From a virus, in IMG/VR virus record IMGVR_UViG_3300010149_003499, positions 1-30,635 of that record: 30,635 nucleotides of DNA; one strand, written 5' to 3'. The notes under the pieces are model-generated. The model worked only from the letters and a program-made list of their open reading frames with translations, was not told where the DNA came from and did not search any database. Of the stretch, positions 2,923-22,138 are shown piece after piece; position 1 is the stretch's first letter; the number at the start of each line of letters is the position of its first letter. The position numbers were made by a program, and so were the translations under genes.

Positions 2923-4539
2923 TTACTCAACACCGGCAGCAGTGTCAAGGTCCTCGGGCTTGGATACTGAAATATTAGGCTCAAAAGAAAGCACAGCAAG
3001 CGCTGAAGCTACCTTCTCAAGCAACTCTTGATGCTCAACCTTTGCCGAGAAGTGCAAGTCAACGCCGTCTTCCGACTTGAACGCAAACACCGGCACTTGT
3101 GCAACAGCACTGCTAACATCAAACGACTCCACCTCTGAACACTTAACATGCACAATAAACCCTGAAGTCGCCTTCTCCCCTTGCTCCATTGGGCGAGACA
3201 TGGGAGCCTCCGTCAAAAAGTTCTCAACTTCGCTAATTAAGCTCAACGTTGCTTCCCGCAAATCGCCTGCTCCACGAATCTTTAGCATCTCATTGTAAGC
3301 CATAAGCAATAACGCCATTGGGTCCTTCAAGTAGTCAGGCTTCTGATAACGAATCATGCTGCCCTTCTCCTCCAAGGTATCGCAAGCACATGCGTCCTTC
3401 TCTGACTCGCAACCGCAAGCAGCATCCTTGGCTTCATCAACATCCACACCTGCTAAATAGTTATTGTGTGAGTTGATGTTAGCATTCCCATCAAACTTCT
3501 TCAATGCTTCCTCATACTCTTCGTGCGTTTCGCACGGCATGTAGCCTCCACCGTGGGAGTGATACCCTGAGCACCCTAGAGTCTTCGACCATGCCAGCGC
3601 AATGTCTGGCGTAGCCCACGTCCCCTGCTCGTCGTCATCAGCACGGACCCCCTCAGGCTCTTCAGCGTCTTTTTCGTCCGGGTCTTTAACCATCATTGCT
3701 GGTGGGGCCTCATCACCAACGGGGGTGTAAGAAGTCGTCGGCTTTACACGAGTCGGCTTGCCTACCATAATACGGTCGCCCTCACGAGTGAAAGTAGCCA
3801 TCCACGTCATGTCCTCACCCGTTTGGAACACAACAGAGTTACCAGTGATCTCTACAATCTGAACTGGCTTTTTGAGCGCTTGAGACAGCATACGTCCCAT
3901 CATCGCTGACAATGCGTCCACCCGGTTAGAAGGAGCGTCTTTGTCGTCATCCATGCTATATACTCCCCCCTTTTCAACAGTGCCCTCACTGTCGTCTTTG
4001 ACAGAAATTGTCCCAGTCAGTTGGTTAGCTCCATGCAGAACAGGAGACATCTCGTACAACTCAACTTCTTTAAGCATATTTGCTTGACGCCCAGCATCAA
4101 AGTCGGCTGTAATTGTCTTGTAACCGATTGACCACTCTTGGTCCATACCGTAAAAAGCTACGTTAGCGAAAGCTTCACGACCACGCTCGGTGTTGAGGTT
4201 GAACTGAACCTTGGCAAATAGCCCGCCGATGCCTGCCTGCTTCATCTTTTCTGGGAGGCGAGGATCACTCTTGGGAACTTCATAAATTTCCAGAACCTTA
4301 CCGATAGGCTGGTTCCAATCGTGGCCCCACACAACACGAGGCTTACGCCGTTTAAGAGAGCCATTAAACGCACCGGAAACCACCACGTCACCGACTGAAT
4401 CTTTGTTACCAATACCAGACACAAACGCTTCAACCACGCCTTGTGCTTTGTCAATGCCGATTTGACCGGAAATTGCCTTAAAATCAAAATCGGGATCAGT
4501 GTTCTCAGCAACATCTGACTGCTCAATTAAATTGGTCAT
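2923..4539 (-). CDS. Prohead protease (HK97 type, S78) with long C-terminal extension
   Basis: The chosen ATG at 4539 (MTNLIEQSD) is preceded by AAGGAG six bases upstream; an in-frame ATG at 4578 has no such site. The N-terminal 190 residues match the HK97 prohead protease family. Visible features are VVEAFVSGIGNKDSVGDVV, the catalytic-His region VVWGHDWNQPIGK and the catalytic-Ser region EWSIGYK, followed by LYEMSPVLHGAN. These proteases cleave scaffold and capsid N-termini during head maturation. The rest (about 350 residues) is atypically long: an acidic linker, a Cys/His mini-domain (LGCSGYHSHGGGYMPC then ETHEEYEE), a Cys-rich stretch (CGCESEKDACACD) and a helical-plus-beta C-terminal domain. 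Whether the extension is cleaved off, acts as scaffold or stays on the virion cannot be seen. Gene order portal, MuF, protease is the usual one. Confidence 0.9.
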   Translation of the reverse strand: MTNLIEQSDVAENTDPDFDFKAISGQIGIDKAQGVVEAFVSGIGNKDSVGDVVVSGAFNGSLKRRKPRVVWGHDWNQPIGKVLEIYEVPKSDPRLPEKMKQAGIGGLFAKVQFNLNTERGREAFANVAFYGMDQEWSIGYKTITADFDAGRQANMLKEVELYEMSPVLHGANQLTGTISVKDDSEGTVEKGGVYSMDDDKDAPSNRVDALSAMMGRMLSQALKKPVQIVEITGNSVVFQTGEDMTWMATFTREGDRIMVGKPTRVKPTTSYTPVGDEAPPAMMVKDPDEKDAEEPEGVRADDDEQGTWATPDIALAWSKTLGCSGYHSHGGGYMPCETHEEYEEALKKFDGNANINSHNNYLAGVDVDEAKDAACGCESEKDACACDTLEEKGSMIRYQKPDYLKDPMALLLMAYNEMLKIRGAGDLREATLSLISEVENFLTEAPMSRPMEQGEKATSGFIVHVKCSEVESFDVSSAVAQVPVFAFKSEDGVDLHFSAKVEHQELLEKVASALAVLSFEPNISVSKPEDLDTAAGVE

Positions 4540-4635: not shown

Positions 4636-5430
4636 TTATCTCGTAAACTTTAACACGCAACGACAATTAATTGTCAAGCCCGGAGGGGCCAATGGGTCTT
4701 TCGGAAATCTAATCGGAGTCCCATCCACATAAAAGGCACTACTAACAGGGACTTTATCACCGTGTAACTGTCGATGACTGATCCGCACGCTCTCGTCCTT
4801 CAACGAAATCCACTCTTTGTTCAGACCAGTATCGGCACTAGCAGCAGAATCATACAGTCCTTGGTTATATGGGCCAAGAACAGCCGAGTCTACAATCATA
4901 GATTTGCGATTACTTCGCAATTTATTGAAAACTGCTTTAATAAGCACCGTAGCCAAAATAATCTTGAAAGTAATGTTTAGATCATTACCGTCCTTGTCAC
5001 GCCCTAACGATGCAGAGGCCAAGGAAACTTCAACTTGATCCTGTGTCGTGGAGTTGAAATTGTTTACCGTGGCTAGGTGCTCAGAGATTGCGGCATCTGC
5101 CTGCTCTGCGGTTACAGATTCCCCATAACCTTCTTCTATATTGTCAGAAATCGCCTGCTGGTAAATGTCTTTCATTGAGTCTGTGAGAGGGATGGTACTT
5201 ACAGCTAAAGCCGACATGGGGACAATTGAAGCGAAGTTGGCGTCTTCCCCTAATGTCAGTAAAGCTGATGTGGCCTGCGTGTTAATGGCATCAAGAACTG
5301 TCTGCTCTTGAGCGTCAATAATAACGTCTAACTGCTTAGACAGTTGATCTTCTAACGACTCAACCCTGTATAGAGCTTTTTCTTCCCAAGTTGTGTATCT
5401 ACCTAGGTCACCAAACTTTAGACCTGCTGA
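4636..5430 (-). CDS. MuF-type head morphogenesis protein, probably made as a portal-MuF frameshift fusion
   Basis: The C-terminal part matches the phage Mu gpF / SPP1 gp7 head morphogenesis domain: KEWISLKDESVRISHRQLHG, the PxDPxAPPG region and the terminal INCRC. This protein is usually a minor head component associated with the portal. An ATG exists at 5217, but the same frame is open for 71 further codons upstream. That upstream part reads like genuine protein (RYTTWEEKALYRVESLEDQL, DAQEQTVLDAI) and contains no ATG, GTG or TTG. It overlaps the end of the portal gene in the -1 frame, where CCCTTTT sits. I therefore give the start as the first codon after the proposed shift. The fusion would be about 749 aa (485 portal residues plus 264). 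The alternatives are initiation at ATG 5217 (193 aa), which lacks a good ribosome site, or use of a rare start codon. Confidence 0.82.
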   Translation of the reverse strand, partial: SAGLKFGDLGRYTTWEEKALYRVESLEDQLSKQLDVIIDAQEQTVLDAINTQATSALLTLGEDANFASIVPMSALAVSTIPLTDSMKDIYQQAISDNIEEGYGESVTAEQADAAISEHLATVNNFNSTTQDQVEVSLASASLGRDKDGNDLNITFKIILATVLIKAVFNKLRSNRKSMIVDSAVLGPYNQGLYDSAASADTGLNKEWISLKDESVRISHRQLHGDKVPVSSAFYVDGTPIRFPKDPLAPPGLTINCRCVLKFTR

Positions 5431-6884
5431 AAAGGGGCACTCTTCTTACCCTCCGCTTCATCGCCTTCTAATTCGCTTGGAACTTGTGATGCAGAAGCTT
5501 CAATATTTTCAGTACCTGTTACAGTACCTGCTTCAACAAAGCCGCCCTCTTCTGGGCTAAACTCTGTGACCACGGACTGTTGAGCATTTTGTGCCTGAAC
5601 ATCTAACGGCACACCCTCTTCGACAGTACCCTGATCATTCATGGGCTTTTCTGTATTTGCAATTGGGGTCTGGTTCGGGTTAGAAAGGAGAGAGTCCGCA
5701 ATGTCAGAAACAACCTTTTTCCTGCCGGACGCTTCACGGTATTCATTGGCACTAATCAAGCCAGTCTGAAACTCTGTCAGATGGTGACGCTCACGCTCTT
5801 GCTTAGCGAGGACAAGAATGGGAACGTTGTTCACATCAAAATCCACAAAGAAAGAGTCGTCAATCTTATCAAAGGAACGAGCAATCAAGTCAAGGTGCGG
5901 AGACATGGTTTCCATCCAGAAAACCTTACCTTCCTCCATAGCGTTAGAGAAAGTCCTACCAGACGAGTTACCGATGATAGACTCAGGTACACCAAACGCA
6001 GCAAGAATCTCTTCTTTTGTAATAGTACGCATCTGTACGTAAGCAGCATCTCGTGGACTCGCAGCAGTGTCTACGAAATCTGCACCGTCATCCGATGAGA
6101 TGACACCAACCGACCCTGCACGACCAATATTGCCACGGAACCGGGAACGAAGTTCCTCTTTATCTTCGTCAGCAATCTCACTACGAAGAACCAACAGCCC
6201 GCCCGGTCGTCCATCGTTAATCAAGAAGTTACGGTTATAAATCTTAGCCAAGTTCTCTAGCTCAATAGCAACACCCGCTGCCTCCATCGGAGTCATAGAT
6301 AGATAAGGGTCTAGTGGATGCGGGCGGCGAATCCAGATAACGTTCTCGGGTTTAATAGTACGCTTCTCCATCGCACTAATCTGAACCTCAAACCCCTTCA
6401 CAAACTTGTTTACATCGGGAATGGGCGAAGTGTTCTGTGGGGGTAGCAGATGTAACGCAATAGGCTTACCGCCACGTCCTCTAACAATCTCAACAAAGAC
6501 ACCACGGCTACTAATCAGCAACTGCGAAGATAAACGATACCTGAAGGCAAAAGCGTTCTCTCCGTCATTTGCAGTGTTGTTGAACAATTTCAACATAGAG
6601 TGATCCCCGACAACCTCACCAAACGGATTGTTGTCTTTGCGGAACATCATAGGTAGACGTGCCTGGTTTGATGAAATAACATCAATACAGCGGAACACCC
6701 AAGTAACCTTAGACACACCCTCTTTATAAGCCTTAGTGATATCCCAACCATCGTGATACCCACGATCATTGCCGGTCAACGACGGGCTGTACGAGACTGG
6801 TGCGCCTACCGAAACAGAAGCAGCCTTTTGCTGCCCCGAGATTGCATCTTGAAGAGATTTATTTGAACTTGAGTTCCACGCCAT
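5418..6884 (-). CDS. Portal protein (HK97 type)
   Basis: 488 aa. The region VTWVFRCIDVISSNQARLPM near residue 60 is typical of HK97-family portals, as are the following elements ending in EEILAAFGVPESIIGNSSGR, the segment that precedes the portal stem and wing. The portal forms the dodecameric ring through which DNA is packaged, and it binds the terminase. The start ATG at 6884 overlaps the stop of the upstream 52-aa membrane protein (TAATG), indicating translational coupling. The C-terminal 90 residues are a Glu/Gln-rich low-complexity tail (EEGVPLDVQAQNAQQSVV) that leads into a likely -1 frameshift onto the MuF frame. Terminase is divergent rather than adjacent in the same operon, which is less usual. 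Confidence 0.92.
   Translation of the reverse strand: MAWNSSSNKSLQDAISGQQKAASVSVGAPVSYSPSLTGNDRGYHDGWDITKAYKEGVSKVTWVFRCIDVISSNQARLPMMFRKDNNPFGEVVGDHSMLKLFNNTANDGENAFAFRYRLSSQLLISSRGVFVEIVRGRGGKPIALHLLPPQNTSPIPDVNKFVKGFEVQISAMEKRTIKPENVIWIRRPHPLDPYLSMTPMEAAGVAIELENLAKIYNRNFLINDGRPGGLLVLRSEIADEDKEELRSRFRGNIGRAGSVGVISSDDGADFVDTAASPRDAAYVQMRTITKEEILAAFGVPESIIGNSSGRTFSNAMEEGKVFWMETMSPHLDLIARSFDKIDDSFFVDFDVNNVPILVLAKQERERHHLTEFQTGLISANEYREASGRKKVVSDIADSLLSNPNQTPIANTEKPMNDQGTVEEGVPLDVQAQNAQQSVVTEFSPEEGGFVEAGTVTGTENIEASASQVPSELEGDEAEGKKSAPFQQV
5430..5454 (-). promoter_or_regulatory. Candidate programmed -1 ribosomal frameshift signal
   Basis: On the coding strand, CCCTTTT occupies 5436-5430 and fits X_XXY_YYZ in the portal frame (C CCT TTT). 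Slipping back one base gives CCC TTT and enters the MuF frame. The zero-frame stop TAA lies 9 nt downstream (5420-5418). GGAGGG at 5454-5449 lies 12 nt upstream, the spacing at which an internal Shine-Dalgarno sequence is known to stimulate -1 shifting in E. coli dnaX. The -1 frame is closed upstream by TAA at 5448-5446, so MuF has no start of its own there. The recoding event itself is inferred. Confidence 0.65.
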
Positions 6885-7048: not shown

Positions 7049-7077
7049 ACTGTACCGTTTATTTGTCTAGGAGACAA
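7049..7077 (-). promoter_or_regulatory. Promoter of the portal operon, leaderless type
   Basis: On the minus strand TTGTCT (7077-7072), 17 bp, TACAGT (7054-7049), then exactly six bases to the ATG at 7042. It overlaps the ribosome-binding region of the divergent terminase gene. A plus-strand TATACT at 7046-7051 overlaps this -10 and may serve terminase. Confidence 0.6.
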
Positions 7078-7083
7078 GCAGAT

Positions 7084-8400
7084 ATGTCCACAGAGACTCC
7101 CGACTGGGAAAAAATCAAAGCATATTTAGAACCAAAGCGATCTGAATACTGGGTTGAAGAACCCTCGCTAACTCAAAAAGTTTTTCTCCGGTCAGAAGGA
7201 CAAGAAGTAATGTTTGGTGGAGCCGCAGGTGGGGGCAAATCCTCGGCACTGATTATGGCCGCTCTACAATACGTGGACATCCCAAACTACAGTGCTATCT
7301 TGTTTAGGCGCACATACGCTGACCTTGCCCTACCTGGCGCTCTAATGGACCGTTTCAGAGAATGGATTATGCAGTTTGATGATGTACACTGGAACGCAAA
7401 TGCGTACACTGCAACGTTTCCCAATGGGGCACGAATAACATTCGGTTACCTAAATAACATCAACGACTATCTGCGATACAAGGGTTCAGAGTTTCAGTTC
7501 ATCGGAATGGATGAGGTTACCGAAATCAGAGAAGCAGATTACCGGTACATGTTCTCACGTTTACGCCGCCCCGCAAGTGGTCCGCTAGCTTCAGTCCCTC
7601 TCAGAATGCGCTGTGCAACTAACCCTGCACCTAACTGGGTCCGTCAGCGTTTCCTAGTTGAAGGTAAAACCAAGGGACGTATCTTTATTCCCTCAATGCT
7701 AACTGATAACCCCGGAATTGACCCAGACTCCTACCGCACCATGCTCGCAGAGCTAGACCCCATCGAACGAAAGCGCCTAGAGTTTGGTGACTGGTGGGCA
7801 ACCACACTCGGATCAATGTTTGACCGTGGTAGCTTTGAGGTCATTGAACCAAGCGAAATGCCGGACTTGAGTAAAGACACAACTGTGGTGCGCTTCTGGG
7901 ACTTAGCCGGAACTGAACCGTCTAATTCTAATCCTGATCCTGACTGGACAGTTGGATGCCTCGGAGCATTTGATAACGGTGTCTTTTACATCCTAGATGT
8001 ACGCCGCATTCGTGCGAAAGGTGAAAAAGTTGAAAAGTTTATTAAAGAAACTGCTGAAGAGGACGGGCCTGAGATAACAATCCAGATGGAGCAAGAACCA
8101 GGATCAGCAGGTAAAAACTTAGTGGACCAATACGCTCGGTACGTCCTGCCAGGCTACACCTTCTCAGGGCAACGAGCCACAGGCGACAAAGTAACAAGAG
8201 CAAAGCCATTTGCGGCGGCTGTAGCTAACGGTAACGTGCGTCTAATACGAGGCGACTGGACCACAGACTTCATTGATGAACTGTCGTCCTTCCCCGAAGC
8301 ACGAGTCCACGACGATCAAGTTGACGCCGCCACCCACGCCTTCAACCTGTGCGCCGGACTCGGTATGGGCATTCGCCGCAAGATTGAAATCATCATCTAG
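7084..8400 (+). CDS. terL: Terminase large subunit
   Basis: 438 aa. The ATG at 7084 is preceded by AGGAG; an in-frame TTG at 7063 is less likely. The N-terminal ATPase has Walker A GGAAGGGKSS (residues 45-54), FRRTYADL (adenine-motif or arginine-finger region), Walker B QFIGMDEVTE, and a coupling motif (CATNPAP). The C-terminal RNase H-like nuclease begins VVRFWDLAGTEP (first catalytic Asp) and ends RVHDDQVDAATHAF (last catalytic Asp). It cuts concatemeric DNA and powers packaging through the portal. The length is normal. No small subunit gene is recognisable nearby. The 3' end overlaps the convergent methyltransferase gene by four bases with no terminator visible. Confidence 0.96.
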   Translation: MSTETPDWEKIKAYLEPKRSEYWVEEPSLTQKVFLRSEGQEVMFGGAAGGGKSSALIMAALQYVDIPNYSAILFRRTYADLALPGALMDRFREWIMQFDDVHWNANAYTATFPNGARITFGYLNNINDYLRYKGSEFQFIGMDEVTEIREADYRYMFSRLRRPASGPLASVPLRMRCATNPAPNWVRQRFLVEGKTKGRIFIPSMLTDNPGIDPDSYRTMLAELDPIERKRLEFGDWWATTLGSMFDRGSFEVIEPSEMPDLSKDTTVVRFWDLAGTEPSNSNPDPDWTVGCLGAFDNGVFYILDVRRIRAKGEKVEKFIKETAEEDGPEITIQMEQEPGSAGKNLVDQYARYVLPGYTFSGQRATGDKVTRAKPFAAAVANGNVRLIRGDWTTDFIDELSSFPEARVHDDQVDAATHAFNLCAGLGMGIRRKIEIII

Positions 8401-18322: not shown

Positions 18323-18989
18323 CGCCTTCTGGTTCTACTTCTGTGCCCTCTGTCGTGGCCTGCTCTGATGCCGACTTAACAAAGGTCAACATCTCCTTAA
18401 GCAAGTCACGAGTCACATGCTCATTAGCAAACTCAACTCCGCCTGAAACCTCCACCCAATGCGCACGGCACGCCTCAATGACATTCTCCGCCTGATTGTT
18501 TAGAACTTCTCGGAGTTTTTCAAAGTGCTCCGGTGAGATAGGCTGATCAGCCATATCCTGTTCATGCTCCAGACTCATGGACTCTTCAGAACGAGCAAGA
18601 TACAGGCCAACACCAAAGTGTTGCGCCGCCTTCTTCAAGGCATCTGAAACAGCGCCCTTCATCTCATCACCAAGATCAAGAATGTCGCCAGCCTTGGTGC
18701 GCTTAATCTTCTGCCCACCGATACCGTCCTTGACGATGGTTAGGGCAGGTGCCTCGTTTGTAGGAACAAACGTAGCGCTAAGACGAACGTGGGCAACAAT
18801 AAAATCAGGATCAAGGCTATCACGCTCACACGAGACAATCTCATAGGACCACATGTCCACACCTAGCACCCTATTCAAACGAGTAATAACCTCGCTGACA
18901 GGAATATACGTGAGACTAGCCCCACCCTTCTTCAATTGCCGTTCAACCGCAGGATCAAAAGGCTCCGATAGCTGTTCAAATAATGTCAC
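18312..18989 (-). CDS. Rad52-like single-strand annealing protein
   Basis: 225 aa. The start is GTG at 18989 (GTGA overlap with the previous stop) with AGGAGA five bases upstream. The N-terminal 140 residues match the Rad52/22 superfamily: LTYIPVSEVITRLNRVLG, the Trp-containing MWSYEIVSCER, then RLSATF, IGGQKIKR and the signature DEMKGAVSDALKKAAQHFGV ending in GLYL. Such proteins anneal complementary single strands and drive RecA-independent recombination. RecA is also encoded in this phage (21164), so both routes may exist. The C-terminal tail is acidic, which can bind partners such as SSB. The downstream neighbour is the Cas4-like nuclease. Confidence 0.88.
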   Translation of the reverse strand: MTLFEQLSEPFDPAVERQLKKGGASLTYIPVSEVITRLNRVLGVDMWSYEIVSCERDSLDPDFIVAHVRLSATFVPTNEAPALTIVKDGIGGQKIKRTKAGDILDLGDEMKGAVSDALKKAAQHFGVGLYLARSEESMSLEHEQDMADQPISPEHFEKLREVLNNQAENVIEACRAHWVEVSGGVEFANEHVTRDLLKEMLTFVKSASEQATTEGTEVEPEGDAG

Positions 18990-19498
18990 TTGTCTCTCCT
19001 AATAACTAGACTCTTTTTGGCTTCGCCAACTTCACAATAATCATCAGCATCTAAATGAAGCTCTTTTAACTTAGATACCTTCCAATAAGAAATACCTGCA
19101 AACTCTAGCGCCTCACGAATCATATCCGTGGGAGTCTTAACGACTTCGCCTGTCGTCAAATCGACACTACTGTCCACAAGCCGCTTGCTAACATCGTCAA
19201 TGAGCGACTTATGGTCCCACGTCTTACGAGGTGACCCCGACTTAATCTCAACCGTTGCCCCGTCTACATCAACGGGAATCGTCAGGTTCCCAACATGCTC
19301 CGTAACGATAGACTGTAACTCGTTGAACAGTAGGGTACCAAACGACTTAACAGCGTGCAGGTCAGTAGCGAACTGCAATAAGTCAGTGGTGTCAGCGGAT
19401 TCAATATCATCGCTGAGTTTAATGATGCTACCATCAAGGGTACGCAACAAAGACTGAACCTCGTGTAGTATTGACATAGGTTCAGATAAATCTGACAT
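18986..19498 (-). CDS. Conserved phage protein upstream of the annealing protein, function unknown
   Basis: 170 aa, start ATG at 19498 with AAGGAG five bases upstream. The N-terminal half is helical (LHEVQSLLRTLDGSIIKLSD). The centre has RKTWDHKSLIDDVSKRLVDS and the C-terminal end has SYWKVSKLKELHLDADDYC. I recognise this W-D-H ... S-Y-W-[KR]-V ... D-[ED]-Y-C pattern from actinophage genes next to recombination nucleases, but know no activity. It is first in the recombination operon, behind a TTGACC-N17-TAAACT promoter. Overlap with the next gene is four bases (GTGA). Confidence 0.75.
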   Translation of the reverse strand: MSDLSEPMSILHEVQSLLRTLDGSIIKLSDDIESADTTDLLQFATDLHAVKSFGTLLFNELQSIVTEHVGNLTIPVDVDGATVEIKSGSPRKTWDHKSLIDDVSKRLVDSSVDLTTGEVVKTPTDMIREALEFAGISYWKVSKLKELHLDADDYCEVGEAKKSLVIRRDK

Positions 19499-19560: not shown

Positions 19561-19953
19561 CTATGATTCTGGATCAATCAGCAGTTGTTCTAAGGCATAG
19601 TCAACGCTGAACTCTAAAGGATTCTTAACCGACGAAATCGCCTCTTCCGACACCATCGTCAGCTTCTCCGAAAAGAGCCGGATAGCATTGTCTTTGACGG
19701 CCTCTTGCATTTCATCATCAGAAGCTTCACTCCCCAGCATTTTATAAATACCGCTAGCGACAAACTCATCTATTTCATTATTAAGATACTGGTCCGAAAT
19801 AGCAATAGTCAGATGATCCATAGTCCAGGAAATAACAGAGAAGTCTTTGCCGTCAATACCTGTCTTCGGTGCATTAACAAACGTAATCTTGATATCACCA
19901 CGTTTTAAAACCGCTAATACATCGGGATCAAAATCGTCATACCCGGTGAACAT
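19561..19953 (-). CDS. Hypothetical protein downstream of WhiB
   Basis: 130 aa. ATG at 19953 with AGGGG seven bases upstream; overlaps the WhiB end by 17 bp. The product is acidic, with an N-terminal segment FTGYDDFDPDVLAVLKRGD, then ITFVNAPKTGI and a helical C-terminal half (DEMQEAVKDNAIRLFSEKL). No recognisable domain. Because it is co-transcribed with WhiB it may take part in the same regulatory switch, but there is no direct sign of that. Confidence 0.65.
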   Translation of the reverse strand: MFTGYDDFDPDVLAVLKRGDIKITFVNAPKTGIDGKDFSVISWTMDHLTIAISDQYLNNEIDEFVASGIYKMLGSEASDDEMQEAVKDNAIRLFSEKLTMVSEEAISSVKNPLEFSVDYALEQLLIDPES

Positions 19954-20185
19954 CTTCAGACCCCTCTAGCAAACGAACTAGATCAGGACCCGTTTGACCT
20001 CCCCAAACTCCAATTGTTAACTGATTGTCTAATGCAAACTGTAAACACTGTTCTCTGACACCACAAACTTTATCGCACATAGAAATAGCCTCTCTACGTA
20101 ACGTGGGCTTCGACGAAAAGAACAACCTATCCTCTCCGACACAAGGAGTCTCCTTAAACCACTCGGGCGCTTTGACGTTTAACAT
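19937..20185 (-). CDS. whiB: WhiB-family iron-sulfur transcription factor
   Basis: 82 aa from ATG at 20185 (MLNVKAPEWFKETPC) with AAGGA six bases upstream; an in-frame GTG at 20221 is upstream of the likely transcript start. The family signature is present: Cys in TPCVGED, three Cys in MCDKVCGVREQC and the GVWGG turn, followed by a short acidic end. WhiB proteins bind a 4Fe-4S cluster through four Cys and contact the principal sigma factor. Phage copies can shut down or redirect host genes. Here the middle spacing is Cys-x3-Cys rather than the usual Cys-x2-Cys. A WhiB gene strongly suggests an actinobacterial host. Confidence 0.88.
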   Translation of the reverse strand: MLNVKAPEWFKETPCVGEDRLFFSSKPTLRREAISMCDKVCGVREQCLQFALDNQLTIGVWGGQTGPDLVRLLEGSEDVHRV

Positions 20186-20208
20186 GCTGTATCCTTCATC
20201 ACAAGCAT

Positions 20209-20237
20209 ATTGTATAAACACAGTGTCAAGGTATCAA
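20209..20237 (-). promoter_or_regulatory. WhiB promoter
   Basis: TTGATA (20237-20232), 17 bp, TACAAT (20214-20209) on the minus strand. The transcript would start about 20 nt before the WhiB ATG at 20185. The -35 elements of this promoter and the divergent plus-strand promoter at 20251 are only 13 bp apart. Confidence 0.65.
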
Positions 20238-20250
20238 CCCAAAACCACAC

Positions 20251-20279
20251 TTGACACAAACAGCGCAGAGGACTACCCT
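20251..20279 (+). promoter_or_regulatory. Promoter reading into the non-coding region
   Basis: TTGACA (20251-20256), 17 bp, TACCCT (20274-20279). The -10 fits the TANNNT pattern seen at other promoters here. A transcript would begin near 20286. No gene with a normal start follows for over 450 bp, which is why a non-coding RNA is proposed. Confidence 0.55.
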
Positions 20280-20285
20280 ATCAGC

Positions 20286-20713
20286 AAACCTACAAAGGAG
20301 AAACCTGCCACAAGACTGAAACCGGGGAACCCCGATGACATAAACGTTCACTGAAGGACCGGAGGGTAACACTCGTTACGCAACTGGTTAACTACTGATA
20401 AGACGGGCACGTCTGTATCACAGAGTAAAGATTTGGATCGCACGATACACTGGAACACCATTCTTGACGGAATGCCAGTCACTGCACGGAGAGCATCAAG
20501 ACTTGAGATACAGATTCGGAACAAGCAAGCGCCCACGCAGTTCCGGCACACGGGCTACTAGAGCCATATCTAGGGAGAGTGGGCATCGCTGAAAAAATAG
20601 GCGGTGTTTGGGGTCCATGAAGTGAACAGTACTTATATAACACTACGGGAATTGCCTAAGGCTATCGTGGGGCGGCGTCAACCTCCACACGATAGGGTAG
20701 GTGTTCTATACCC
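20286..20713 (+). ncRNA. Candidate large structured non-coding RNA
   Basis: The 553-bp gap between WhiB (start 20185) and the next minus-strand gene (stop 20739) has no gene with a start and ribosome site. On the plus strand it contains a chain of perfect local hairpins. GTAAC/GTTAC (20366-70/20375-79). AGACG/CGTCT (20401-05/20410-14). CATTC/GAATG (20459-63/20470-74). CGGAAC/GTTCCG (20517-22/20540-45) with GCG-CCCA-CGC nested inside. GGCT/AGCC (20553-56/20562-65). CTATCGTG/CACGATAG (20662-69/20688-95). GGGTA/TACCC (20695-99/20709-13). A promoter precedes it. Large ornate phage RNAs such as GOLLD or ROOL are one comparison, but I see no specific motif of either. An open frame without a start codon (20370-20561) overlaps it and is an alternative explanation for part of the region. 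Confidence 0.5.
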
Positions 20714-20738
20714 AAACACATACACCGACAGGCTGAGA

Positions 20739-21107
20739 CTAAGCAGAGGAAGACTTCAACATCTTCACTTGCTGAGCGTCCAAGAAGACAGTAGCTGTGC
20801 CATTGACAATCTCCACCTGATCCAAGGGGACTCCAACCTTAGACGCAATTACTGCCTTCGTCTTTATTTCGTCCATAGGTTCGTATGGCTCAAAAAACTC
20901 TCCATCCTCTGCTAAAACCTGCATCAAAGGAACAGGCGCTGGCGGAGCGCCACACGTTTTACAGCATAGACGATCTTCATTGATCTTGGGCTTACGGGAG
21001 CTTTCCACGGAATGCCCACAGTCAAGTTCGATGTGCCACTTAGTTTTCCCATACTCACCCAAACGAACAGCTTGAGTTACCATCCGCTTCGGACCACGTT
21101 TACTCAT
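20739..21107 (-). CDS. Hypothetical protein with putative zinc-binding cysteines
   Basis: 122 aa from the ATG at 21107 ([12 protein letters not shown]); a longer frame to 21152 exists but runs through the promoter region. A -10-like TACGAT ends six bases before the ATG and no ribosome site is present, so the message is probably leaderless. Residues 25-55 contain [11 protein letters not shown] and [12 protein letters not shown], a possible C/H zinc site. The C-terminal part ([20 protein letters not shown] then [14 protein letters not shown]) looks like a compact alpha/beta fold. The basic N-terminus would suit nucleic acid binding. No family recognised. Confidence 0.7.
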
Positions 21108-21113
21108 ACAAAT

Positions 21114-21119
21114 ATCGTA
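21114..21119 (-). promoter_or_regulatory. -10 element of the leaderless minus-strand gene at 21107
   Basis: TACGAT on the minus strand, followed by exactly six bases and the ATG. No good -35 is seen at 16-18 bp. It lies back to back with the recA promoter. Confidence 0.4.
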
Positions 21120-21128
21120 CCAGCACCC

Positions 21129-21157
21129 TTGACTCAAGACCAGCGAAAGCATACAAT
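21129..21157 (+). promoter_or_regulatory. recA promoter, leaderless type
   Basis: TTGACT (21129-21134), 17 bp, TACAAT (21152-21157), then six bases to the recA ATG at 21164. The expected transcription start falls on or next to the ATG, and no Shine-Dalgarno sequence is present. Confidence 0.7.
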
Positions 21158-21163
21158 ACGCTT

Positions 21164-22138
21164 ATGGACAAATCTAAACTTCTTGAAGACGCACTGGGCC
21201 AGATTGAAAAACAGTTTGGGGAAGGTGCAATCATGCGCCTCGGGGACAACGCCTCAATGGCCGTAGAGACCATTTCAACAGGATCAATCGCCCTAGACTT
21301 AGCGCTCGGTGTTGGTGGCCTCCCACGAGGGCGTGTCACTGAAGTTTACGGTCCAGAGTCGTCAGGCAAGACCACGGTAGCTTTGCATGTGATTGCTGAA
21401 GCACAAAAGAACGGCGGGCAGTGTGCATTCATCGACGCTGAGCACGCCCTTGACCCAATCTACGCAAAAGCAATCGGATGCGACGTAGACTCTCTACTCG
21501 TTGCTCAGCCAGACACCGGGGAGCAGGCGCTGACCATCACGAACAAGTTGATTGAATCAGGTGCCCTAGACGTTGTAGTCGTGGACTCGGTAGCAGCCCT
21601 TACACCCCGTGCCGAGATTGAAGGCGAAATGGGTGACAGTCATGTTGGACTACACGCACGACTCATGTCTCAAGCTATGCGTAAGATTGTTGCAAACTTG
21701 AACAACTCAAAGACCACACTAATCATGATTAATCAGTTGCGAGAAAAAATTGGTGTCATGTTTGGGTCACCCGAAGTGACCACTGGCGGTAAGGCTCTAA
21801 AGTTCTACGCATCTGTTCGCCTAGACATTCGACGCATTGAAACACTGAAGGACGCTTCCGAAGCAGTCGGTAACAAGACCCGTGTTAAGGTTGTGAAGAA
21901 CAAGGTCGCTCCCCCATTCAGGCAGGCAGAGTTTGAGATTGCTTACGGTGAAGGTATCAGCCGAACCGGGGACATTGTAGATATCGCTGCACAAATGGGA
22001 ATCCTTGATAAGAAGGGTGCGTGGTACGCCTACGAGGGCACGAACATTGGACAGGGGCGGGTTAATACCAAGGCGTACCTTGATGAAAACGAAGATGTAC
22101 GGGAAACAATTGCGAAGGCAATCTACGCTTCGATTTGA
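21164..22138 (+). CDS. recA: RecA recombinase
   Basis: 324 aa. Walker [10 protein letters not shown] (residues 63-71), the core [14 protein letters not shown], Walker [13 protein letters not shown], loop L2 region [17 protein letters not shown] with [19 protein letters not shown]. These are all full-length RecA features, and the sequence is cell-like rather than a divergent UvsX type. The C-terminal domain ends early (AKAIYASI) and lacks the acidic tail common in bacterial RecA. It forms filaments on single-stranded DNA, promotes strand exchange and could also trigger LexA cleavage. It has its own leaderless promoter and ends within the -35 of the next promoter. Confidence 0.96.

Follow-up and report, generated by a model that had tools for sequence, protein, structure and literature searches.

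The role of the large, ornate RNAs encoded by phages is a long-standing open question. The covarying loop contacts of GOLLD and ROOL proved to be intermolecular, GOLLD is reported to bind ribosomes and raiA, an RNA of similar interest, is a monomer; many GOLLD RNAs exceed 800 nt and they often lie near tRNA islands, while the ROOL RNA studied measures 659 nt (PMC12286853). A Shine-Dalgarno feature within a large RNA is known from OLE, in which bS21 binds a mimic of the Shine-Dalgarno/anti-Shine-Dalgarno duplex (PMC12054373). A strong Shine-Dalgarno sequence without a start codon can also stabilise RNA in Bacilli (PMC3997798).

The phage RNA described here is of this known kind, being phage-encoded, hundreds of nucleotides long and folded into a covarying structure with loop contacts; its family, its fold and its orphan Shine-Dalgarno sequence are new to what could be searched. 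With ROOL it shares pseudoknots, a covarying kissing contact, a linker of variable length and an unknown function, but it has no Rfam similarity to ROOL and is shorter at about 430 nt, and few tRNAs were seen near it in the short loci compared. It resembles GOLLD in its covarying loop contacts and in a link to ribosomes, reported for GOLLD and only suspected here from the orphan Shine-Dalgarno sequence; again there is no Rfam similarity, and GOLLD is often longer and lies near tRNA islands. OLE, too, is large and ornate and has a feature of the Shine-Dalgarno type, but it is cellular and its Shine-Dalgarno sequence sits in an internal duplex, whereas here the sequence is free in the leader of a phage RNA. 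The STAB-SD leaders of Bacilli have a Shine-Dalgarno sequence near the 5' end and no start codon, both of which hold for the present leader, but they stabilise messenger RNAs, whereas here the body is noncoding and structured.

The DNA analysed, called the window below, spans the 30,635 bases of a virus record in IMG/VR and has genes that include head protease, portal, terminase, primase/helicase, Rad52-like, PDDEXK, WhiB and RecA. The WhiB gene presumably points to an actinobacterial host, and the viruses that bear the RNA probably infect aquatic actinobacteria. A search of the window for tRNA and tmRNA genes found none. Promoter and RNA lie in the interval 20222-20738, between the divergent WhiB gene and a convergent gene for which we use the label ZnF137, whose product has conserved cysteines and a histidine and no match in Pfam or PHROGs. 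Three conserved neighbour proteins encoded on the minus strand (18986-19498, 19561-19953 and 20739-21152) lack Pfam and PHROGs matches, and in the third some Cys and His residues are invariant.

An initial annotation, made from the sequence alone, had placed a large structured RNA at 20286-20713 behind a promoter TTGACA-N17-TACCCT. The promoter is borne out: it can be read directly, and the motif TTGACN-N17/18-TANNNT is kept in all 30 aligned copies, with a spacer of 17 in 27 and 18 in 3, while a divergent homologue (L285) reads, by eye, TTGACA-N17-TAGTCT. A generic promoter scan did not list it; by our count the -10 box has three of six consensus bases and falls under the cut-off. Both ends of the RNA are inferred, from the promoter and from the point where conservation stops; since conserved letters extend to about 20716 in the alignment, the annotated boundaries were correct to within a few bases. 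Back to back with this promoter stands a conserved TTGACA-like box on the reverse strand (20222-20250), probably the divergent WhiB promoter. The promoter of recA (TTGACT-N17-TACAAT, 21129-21164) ends 7 bases before the ATG, so the recA mRNA may be leaderless.

Related contigs were fetched by similarity to RecA and ZnF137. With blastn, positions 20221-20740 matched 41 of 89 related loci at 73-100% identity, the locus that is the window itself (L001) being left out. Three pattern scans of IMG/VR returned 46, 40 and 33 stretches; the first found the RNA in 46 contigs, every one confirmed by a sequence profile, and the other two gave no new contig, L138 coming from a contig already in the set. 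Two divergent homologues were recognised by models built without them, L073 by the profile (E 6e-22) and L285 by a covariance model (E 1.6e-14). When 43 sources were searched with a covariance model of the P4-P8 core, the window and L073 were recovered; a further match at E 2.2 (L053) was taken as chance. A looser fourth pattern scan (at least 120 stretches) yielded, among the matches listed, no new family contig by profile beyond that of L073; one of its stretches (L171, profile E 0.059) resembles part of a coding gene by eye. The alignment A1 holds 30 sequences, 37 distinct ones minus 7 near-duplicates; it was made automatically, and its columns fall out of register in the leader and around the P10 base.

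Where RecA is at least 82% identical, 34 of 38 loci carry the RNA, and the four without it (L005, L012, L015, L016) have just 0.9-2.1 kb before recA. The stretches of L005 and L015, when read, stop inside cargo; L012 and L016, with 0.9 and 1.8 kb before recA, were not read, and L058, with a partial RecA on its contig, was excluded from the count. Within its phage lineage the RNA is distributed as a core gene would be. Among 75 loci fetched through the neighbour gene g170, the profile matches 45, and one more (L310, E 0.27) was taken as chance. In 11 of the other 30 no more than about 1.05 kb separates the g170 match from the start of the locus; the RNA was not found in the 19 more distant loci (21-49% identity), which offer at least 1.8 kb, so it is either limited to one lineage or elsewhere diverged beyond recognition. 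Of the 75 loci, 33 were also searched with a covariance model, which matches L279, L300 (the L073 contig) and L285. In five distant loci (L286, L288, L294, L298, L301) an ORF of 434-437 aa stands at the place of the RNA. A DNA search of named phages with 19900-21200 and with a divergent copy (L028) gave no match, and the sole pattern match in cellular genomes (L137) had no profile match and was taken as chance.

Mechanically called ORFs overlap the interval. Stop codons interrupt every one of the six frames in 26 of the 27 homologues scanned (the 27th, L031, missed a script landmark and was left out), A1 contains many one- and two-base indels, and no open reading frame conserved across the scanned homologues was found. 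The annotation had held that no conventionally started gene lies here and had named a conserved coding frame as what would refute it; the former is upheld and the latter was looked for without success. The RNA (20323-20697) averages 78.5% identity to the window, against a mean of 33% at fourfold-degenerate recA sites of the same 18 phages. These include L031 despite its low recA identity (0.639), which is probably due to a recA indel that the coordinates ignored.

Folding energy of single sequences is too weak as a proof of structure. The window reaches z -1.47, with 9 of 100 shuffles equally good, the opposite strand reaches z -0.58, and the 30 homologues folded singly average z -1.25 (range +0.25 to -2.88; 40 shuffles each). 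The comparison with shuffled sequence that the annotation had proposed is thus weakly favourable without being convincing, and alone would have misled. Covariation, by contrast, is decisive evidence against chance, and it is virtually certain that the stretch of about 430 nt is a structured RNA. RNAalifold on A1 predicts 68 pairs, of which 37 show one or more both-side changes. A pseudoknotted model of 84 pairs, drawn from covariation on a near-identical alignment and then counted with controls, is paired in 95.8% of cells (86.1% when shuffled), with both-side changes in 50 pairs and 244 cells (26.0 and 57.3 when shuffled) and a covariation score of 0.334 (0.154 when shuffled); none of 500 shuffles reaches any of the five measures. 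When partners are slid, only 30-41% of cells pair, with 17-34 both-side cells, a control that flatters the model because the structure was drawn from the same sequences. G-U fills 215 cells and A-C 38, which marks the plus strand as the transcribed RNA. As an outside check, the model core was fitted to L285 without a broken pair in the alignment, and new versions of helices can be read there by eye: P1 as CCAUAAAC/GUUUAUGG, P8 as CUGGA/UCCAG and P9 as GGCUAG/CUAGUU.

In the resulting compact fold (Table 1), P1-P3 form the stack that closes the core, P4-P6 make up a long arm, P7, P8 and P9 are hairpins, and P10 is the hairpin at the 3' end. The compensatory changes that the annotation had called for are therefore present and its large structured RNA is supported; its 8-bp stem CTATCGTG/CACGATAG exists as the upper stem of P10, but the most informative pairings, long-range (P1, P2 and P3) or pseudoknotted, were absent from it. 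In the automatic alignment the base stem of P10 scores poorly (9-27 of 30 per pair); its only support comes from the sequences when they are read in other registers. The linker joining P3 to PK2 measures between 23 and 70 nt, the one joining P1 to P10 between 22 and 26 nt. In L030 (4083-4558; contig shared with L088 and L124) the P3-PK2 linker carries an insert of about 35 nt that nearly repeats the GUUAC...CUGGUACU stretch.

Table 1. Positions of the promoter, the RNA and its structural elements in the window
Feature	Position	Strand	Evidence
-35 box TTGACA	20251-20256	+	Read directly; TTGACN in 30/30 homologues
-10 box TACCCT	20274-20279	+	17 nt from -35 box; TANNNT in 30/30 homologues
Noncoding RNA, ~430 nt	20286-20716	+	Alignment A1, covariation; ends inferred from promoter and end of conservation
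Orphan Shine-Dalgarno AGGAG, unstructured 5' leader	20296-20300	+	AGGAG in 30/30
Hairpin Pa	20323-326/331-334 (20323-20334)	+	Both-side changes in 3/4 pairs
Invariant unpaired AUGACAUA	20335-20342	+	Invariant in 30/30
Helix P1, closes core	20346-351 with 20622-627	+	Both-side changes in 4/6 pairs
Helix P2	20357-360 with 20612-615	+	Both-side changes in 3/4 pairs; 90.8% of cells paired
Helix P3	20370-374 with 20577-581	+	Both-side changes in 2/5 pairs; 97.2% of cells paired
Pseudoknot PK2	20405-408 (GGGC) with P7 loop 20531-534 (GCCC)	+	98.3% of cells paired
Arm P4-P5	20411-415/511-515, 20418-419/507-508, 20423-426/501-504, 20430-432/495-497 (20411-20515)	+	Both-side changes in 8/14 pairs
Hairpin P6	20449-453/475-479 and 20459-463/470-474	+	Both-side changes in 9/10 pairs; shortened in L285
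P6 loop UUGACG, kissing contact side 1	20464-20469	+	Covariation
Hairpin P7	20516-522/540-546	+	100% of cells paired; both-side changes in 4/7 pairs
Hairpin P8	20558-562/569-573	+	100% of cells paired; both-side changes in 2/5 pairs
Hairpin P9	20582-589/601-608	+	Both-side changes in 5/8 pairs; 93.1% of cells paired
3' hairpin P10	Base 20654-658/698-702; upper stem 20662-20669/20688-20695	+	Upper stem 89.2% of cells paired across 30 homologues
P10 loop CGUCAA, kissing contact side 2	20676-20681	+	Both-side changes in 5/6 pairs

Two loop contacts complete the model. In PK2 the pairing changes to GGAC/GUCC in four sequences, and two of the four pairs show no variation; a possible GGGU/ACCC pairing can be made out by eye in L073, though the automatic alignment scores two cells as unpaired. 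A pairing of the P7 loop with a GGG near 20647 was dropped, as 20405-408 covaries better. The kissing contact joins the loops of P6 and P10, which vary in sequence yet keep five or six complementary bases, as in these variants, paired by eye: CUGCUA/UAGCAG, UGGACG/CGUCUA, UUGGUA/UACCA, UAGGCA/GCCUA, GUAGUG/CGCUAC, UAGCG/CGCUA, UGAGCG/CGCUUA and UUGGAG/CUCCA. Counted alone, it is paired in 91.0% of cells against 76.2% when shuffled, with 25 both-side cells against 5.1 and a covariation of 0.444 against 0.162, each reached by none of 500 shuffles. As a caveat, its five changed pairs are reached by 18 of 500 shuffles and its nine pair types by 98; slid by -3 it still pairs in 65.4% of cells with 10 both-side cells, and its outermost pair fails in 7 of 29. 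Nor is the contact universal, as L285 lacks the P6 arm, and with it the kissing hairpin, while its P10 seems to carry a large insertion.

A covarying loop-loop contact, one per molecule, could suggest a DNA-packaging ring like that of phi29 pRNA, which is also built through loop-loop contacts; pRNA has only 174 nt, the new RNA is much larger and lies away from the packaging genes (terminase 7063-8400, portal 5418-6884), and such a ring is scarcely to be expected here. The chief rival to the reading preferred below is a scaffold or homo-oligomer made of RNA alone, after the manner of GOLLD and ROOL, in which the P6-P10 contact would be intermolecular and AGGAG would do no more than block 5' decay, as in the STAB-SD type. 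Covariation cannot separate pairing within a molecule from pairing between molecules. The covarying kissing contact itself speaks for such an assembly; loop contacts of this kind are intermolecular in GOLLD and ROOL, their cages also have a variable linker, as the P3-PK2 linker is here, and the stabilising effect known from Bacilli would account for the leader (PMC12286853, PMC3997798). On the other side stand the smaller size of the RNA, the narrow range of the P1-P10 linker, which suits an intramolecular contact, the monomeric raiA and the missing contact in L285. An oligomer remains possible, if doubtful, on this balance.

Searches with all Rfam 15 models found nothing at gathering score in the window (best AniS, E 4.4, other strand). 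At E up to 5 L073 gave a match to DdR7 (E 1.2, other strand), L033 gave matches in or by its tRNA plus one at E 4.5 on the other strand of the leader, and L028 gave none. The tRNA next to the RNA in L033 was thus detected, and GOLLD, ROOL, OLE, HEARO and group I introns all have Rfam models; the absence of a family match means that the RNA is not GOLLD or ROOL. Membership in these families, which the annotation had considered, finds no support, as nothing in the RNA of the four members searched came near gathering score, while its alternative of a new class holds as far as Rfam 15 and the literature searched can show. The RNA was not described in that literature, from which most subscription journals were missing. 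Many invariant unpaired bases would fit a catalytic RNA or an intron, but the RNA is intergenic with its own promoter rather than inside a gene, and with no Rfam match within it at E up to 5 this idea deserves very little credence. Genes for tRNA occur in 5 of 90 RNA-bearing loci, which are short stretches, from 3 contigs: in L033 a tRNA-Arg(TCT) gene (3760-3833) starts 45 nt past the aligned RNA end, and in L073 seven tRNAs lie about 6 kb downstream.

The RNA occupies one syntenic locus. Among 40 neighbourhoods, some cut by contig ends and with small ORFs called crudely, the opposite strand upstream carries g170 in 33, g130 in 32 and WhiB in 20 (extra ORFs separate WhiB from the RNA in L011 and L098), and downstream ZnF137 is encoded opposite to the RNA in 33, while recA shares the strand of the RNA in 31. 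The gene directly 3' varies between ZnF137, recA (L021, L023, L024) and same-strand cargo. A cis-acting leader or attenuator controlling a downstream gene would accord with the many phages in which a same-strand gene, cargo or recA, directly follows. In the window and a number of other phages, however, the gene that comes next is encoded on the other strand, the identity of this gene differs between phages, and several downstream starts have their own promoter-like sequence just past the RNA (TTGACT-17-TAGAAT in L023, by eye). No constant same-strand downstream gene was found across the neighbourhoods compared, which argues for action in trans; a cis-acting role is very improbable, and action in trans is inferred with good confidence. 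The cargo region is variable, lies on the strand of the RNA between it and ZnF137/recA (L008, L019, L085, L087, L104, L106, L109, L119 and others) and has its edge at the 3' end of the RNA. Its genes include PhyH, glycosyltransferase 2, LicD, cytidylyltransferase, DUF3307, polysaccharide deacetylase and a DNA methylase, as well as a methyltransferase-like protein scoring below its Pfam cut-off.

When the leader is anchored on AGGAG, little else in it is conserved. AGGAG precedes 6 of the 35 ORFs listed in the window (by eye) and is therefore taken as a Shine-Dalgarno sequence used by the phage. In the RNA no ATG, GTG or TTG follows it at 3-12 nt in 29 of 30 sequences, the exception being L033 with an ATG 3 nt after; if CTG, ATT, ATC and ATA are allowed, 13 of 30 have some candidate at 4-12 nt, with an inconsistent codon. 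In L285 AAAGGGG stands in place of AGGAG. The complement CTCCT is absent from the RNA in all 30 sequences, so no perfect partner within the RNA sequesters the leader, and no aligned internal five-base partner of AGGAG exists in 20 or more of the 30. A four-base partial complement of GGAG at 20541 (26/30) was set aside, as it sits inside helix P7. Ribosomes bound at AGGAG might instead read a minigene AUG-ACA-UAA, for AUGACAUA never varies and UAA follows in 28 sequences; this was rejected because L031 and L073 have UAC in place of the stop, and AGGAG, 30-35 nt off, is too far for ordinary initiation, leaving a short peptide gene with hardly any standing. AGGAG could also be a protein site instead of a Shine-Dalgarno sequence.

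The preferred reading is a stand-alone, trans-acting phage RNA of about 430 nt that is docked on, or shielded by, the 30S subunit through its Shine-Dalgarno sequence. As a joint claim it is given a probability of roughly 0.42, and docking on the ribosome, inferred from sequence alone, is put slightly short of an even chance. The AGGAG leader would pair with the anti-Shine-Dalgarno end of 16S rRNA, and in the infected cell the host's 30S subunits would bear or shelter the folded core; this may serve to tilt translation in favour of the phage or to sustain enough of the RNA for a scaffold role. Precedents for such docking are the reported GOLLD-ribosome association and the Shine-Dalgarno mimic of OLE bound by bS21 (PMC12286853, PMC12054373). 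In favour of the docked RNA were counted the covariation, the ratio of G-U to A-C, the invariably kept promoter, the lack of a frame, the conservation relative to recA, the lack of a fixed downstream gene, the AGGAG kept throughout and mostly without a start codon, the otherwise unconserved leader and the absence of CTCCT. Counted against it were L285 on both its altered leader and its missing hairpin, the ATG of L033, the rarer start-like codons and the partial complement at 20541. Between docking and an oligomeric scaffold with a merely protective Shine-Dalgarno sequence, sequence cannot decide.

It is conceivable, but unlikely, that the family represents a new class of phage RNA machine, its core held on host ribosomes by a free, non-initiating Shine-Dalgarno sequence that captures or reprograms 30S subunits while the loop contact builds an RNA-only assembly. 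The family has no Rfam counterpart and is short enough for routine biochemistry, and the kissing contact and pseudoknot of the structure model are open to swap-mutation tests. For the role of large ornate phage RNAs, the orphan Shine-Dalgarno sequence is a concrete functional lead, one that would tie such RNAs to ribosomes.
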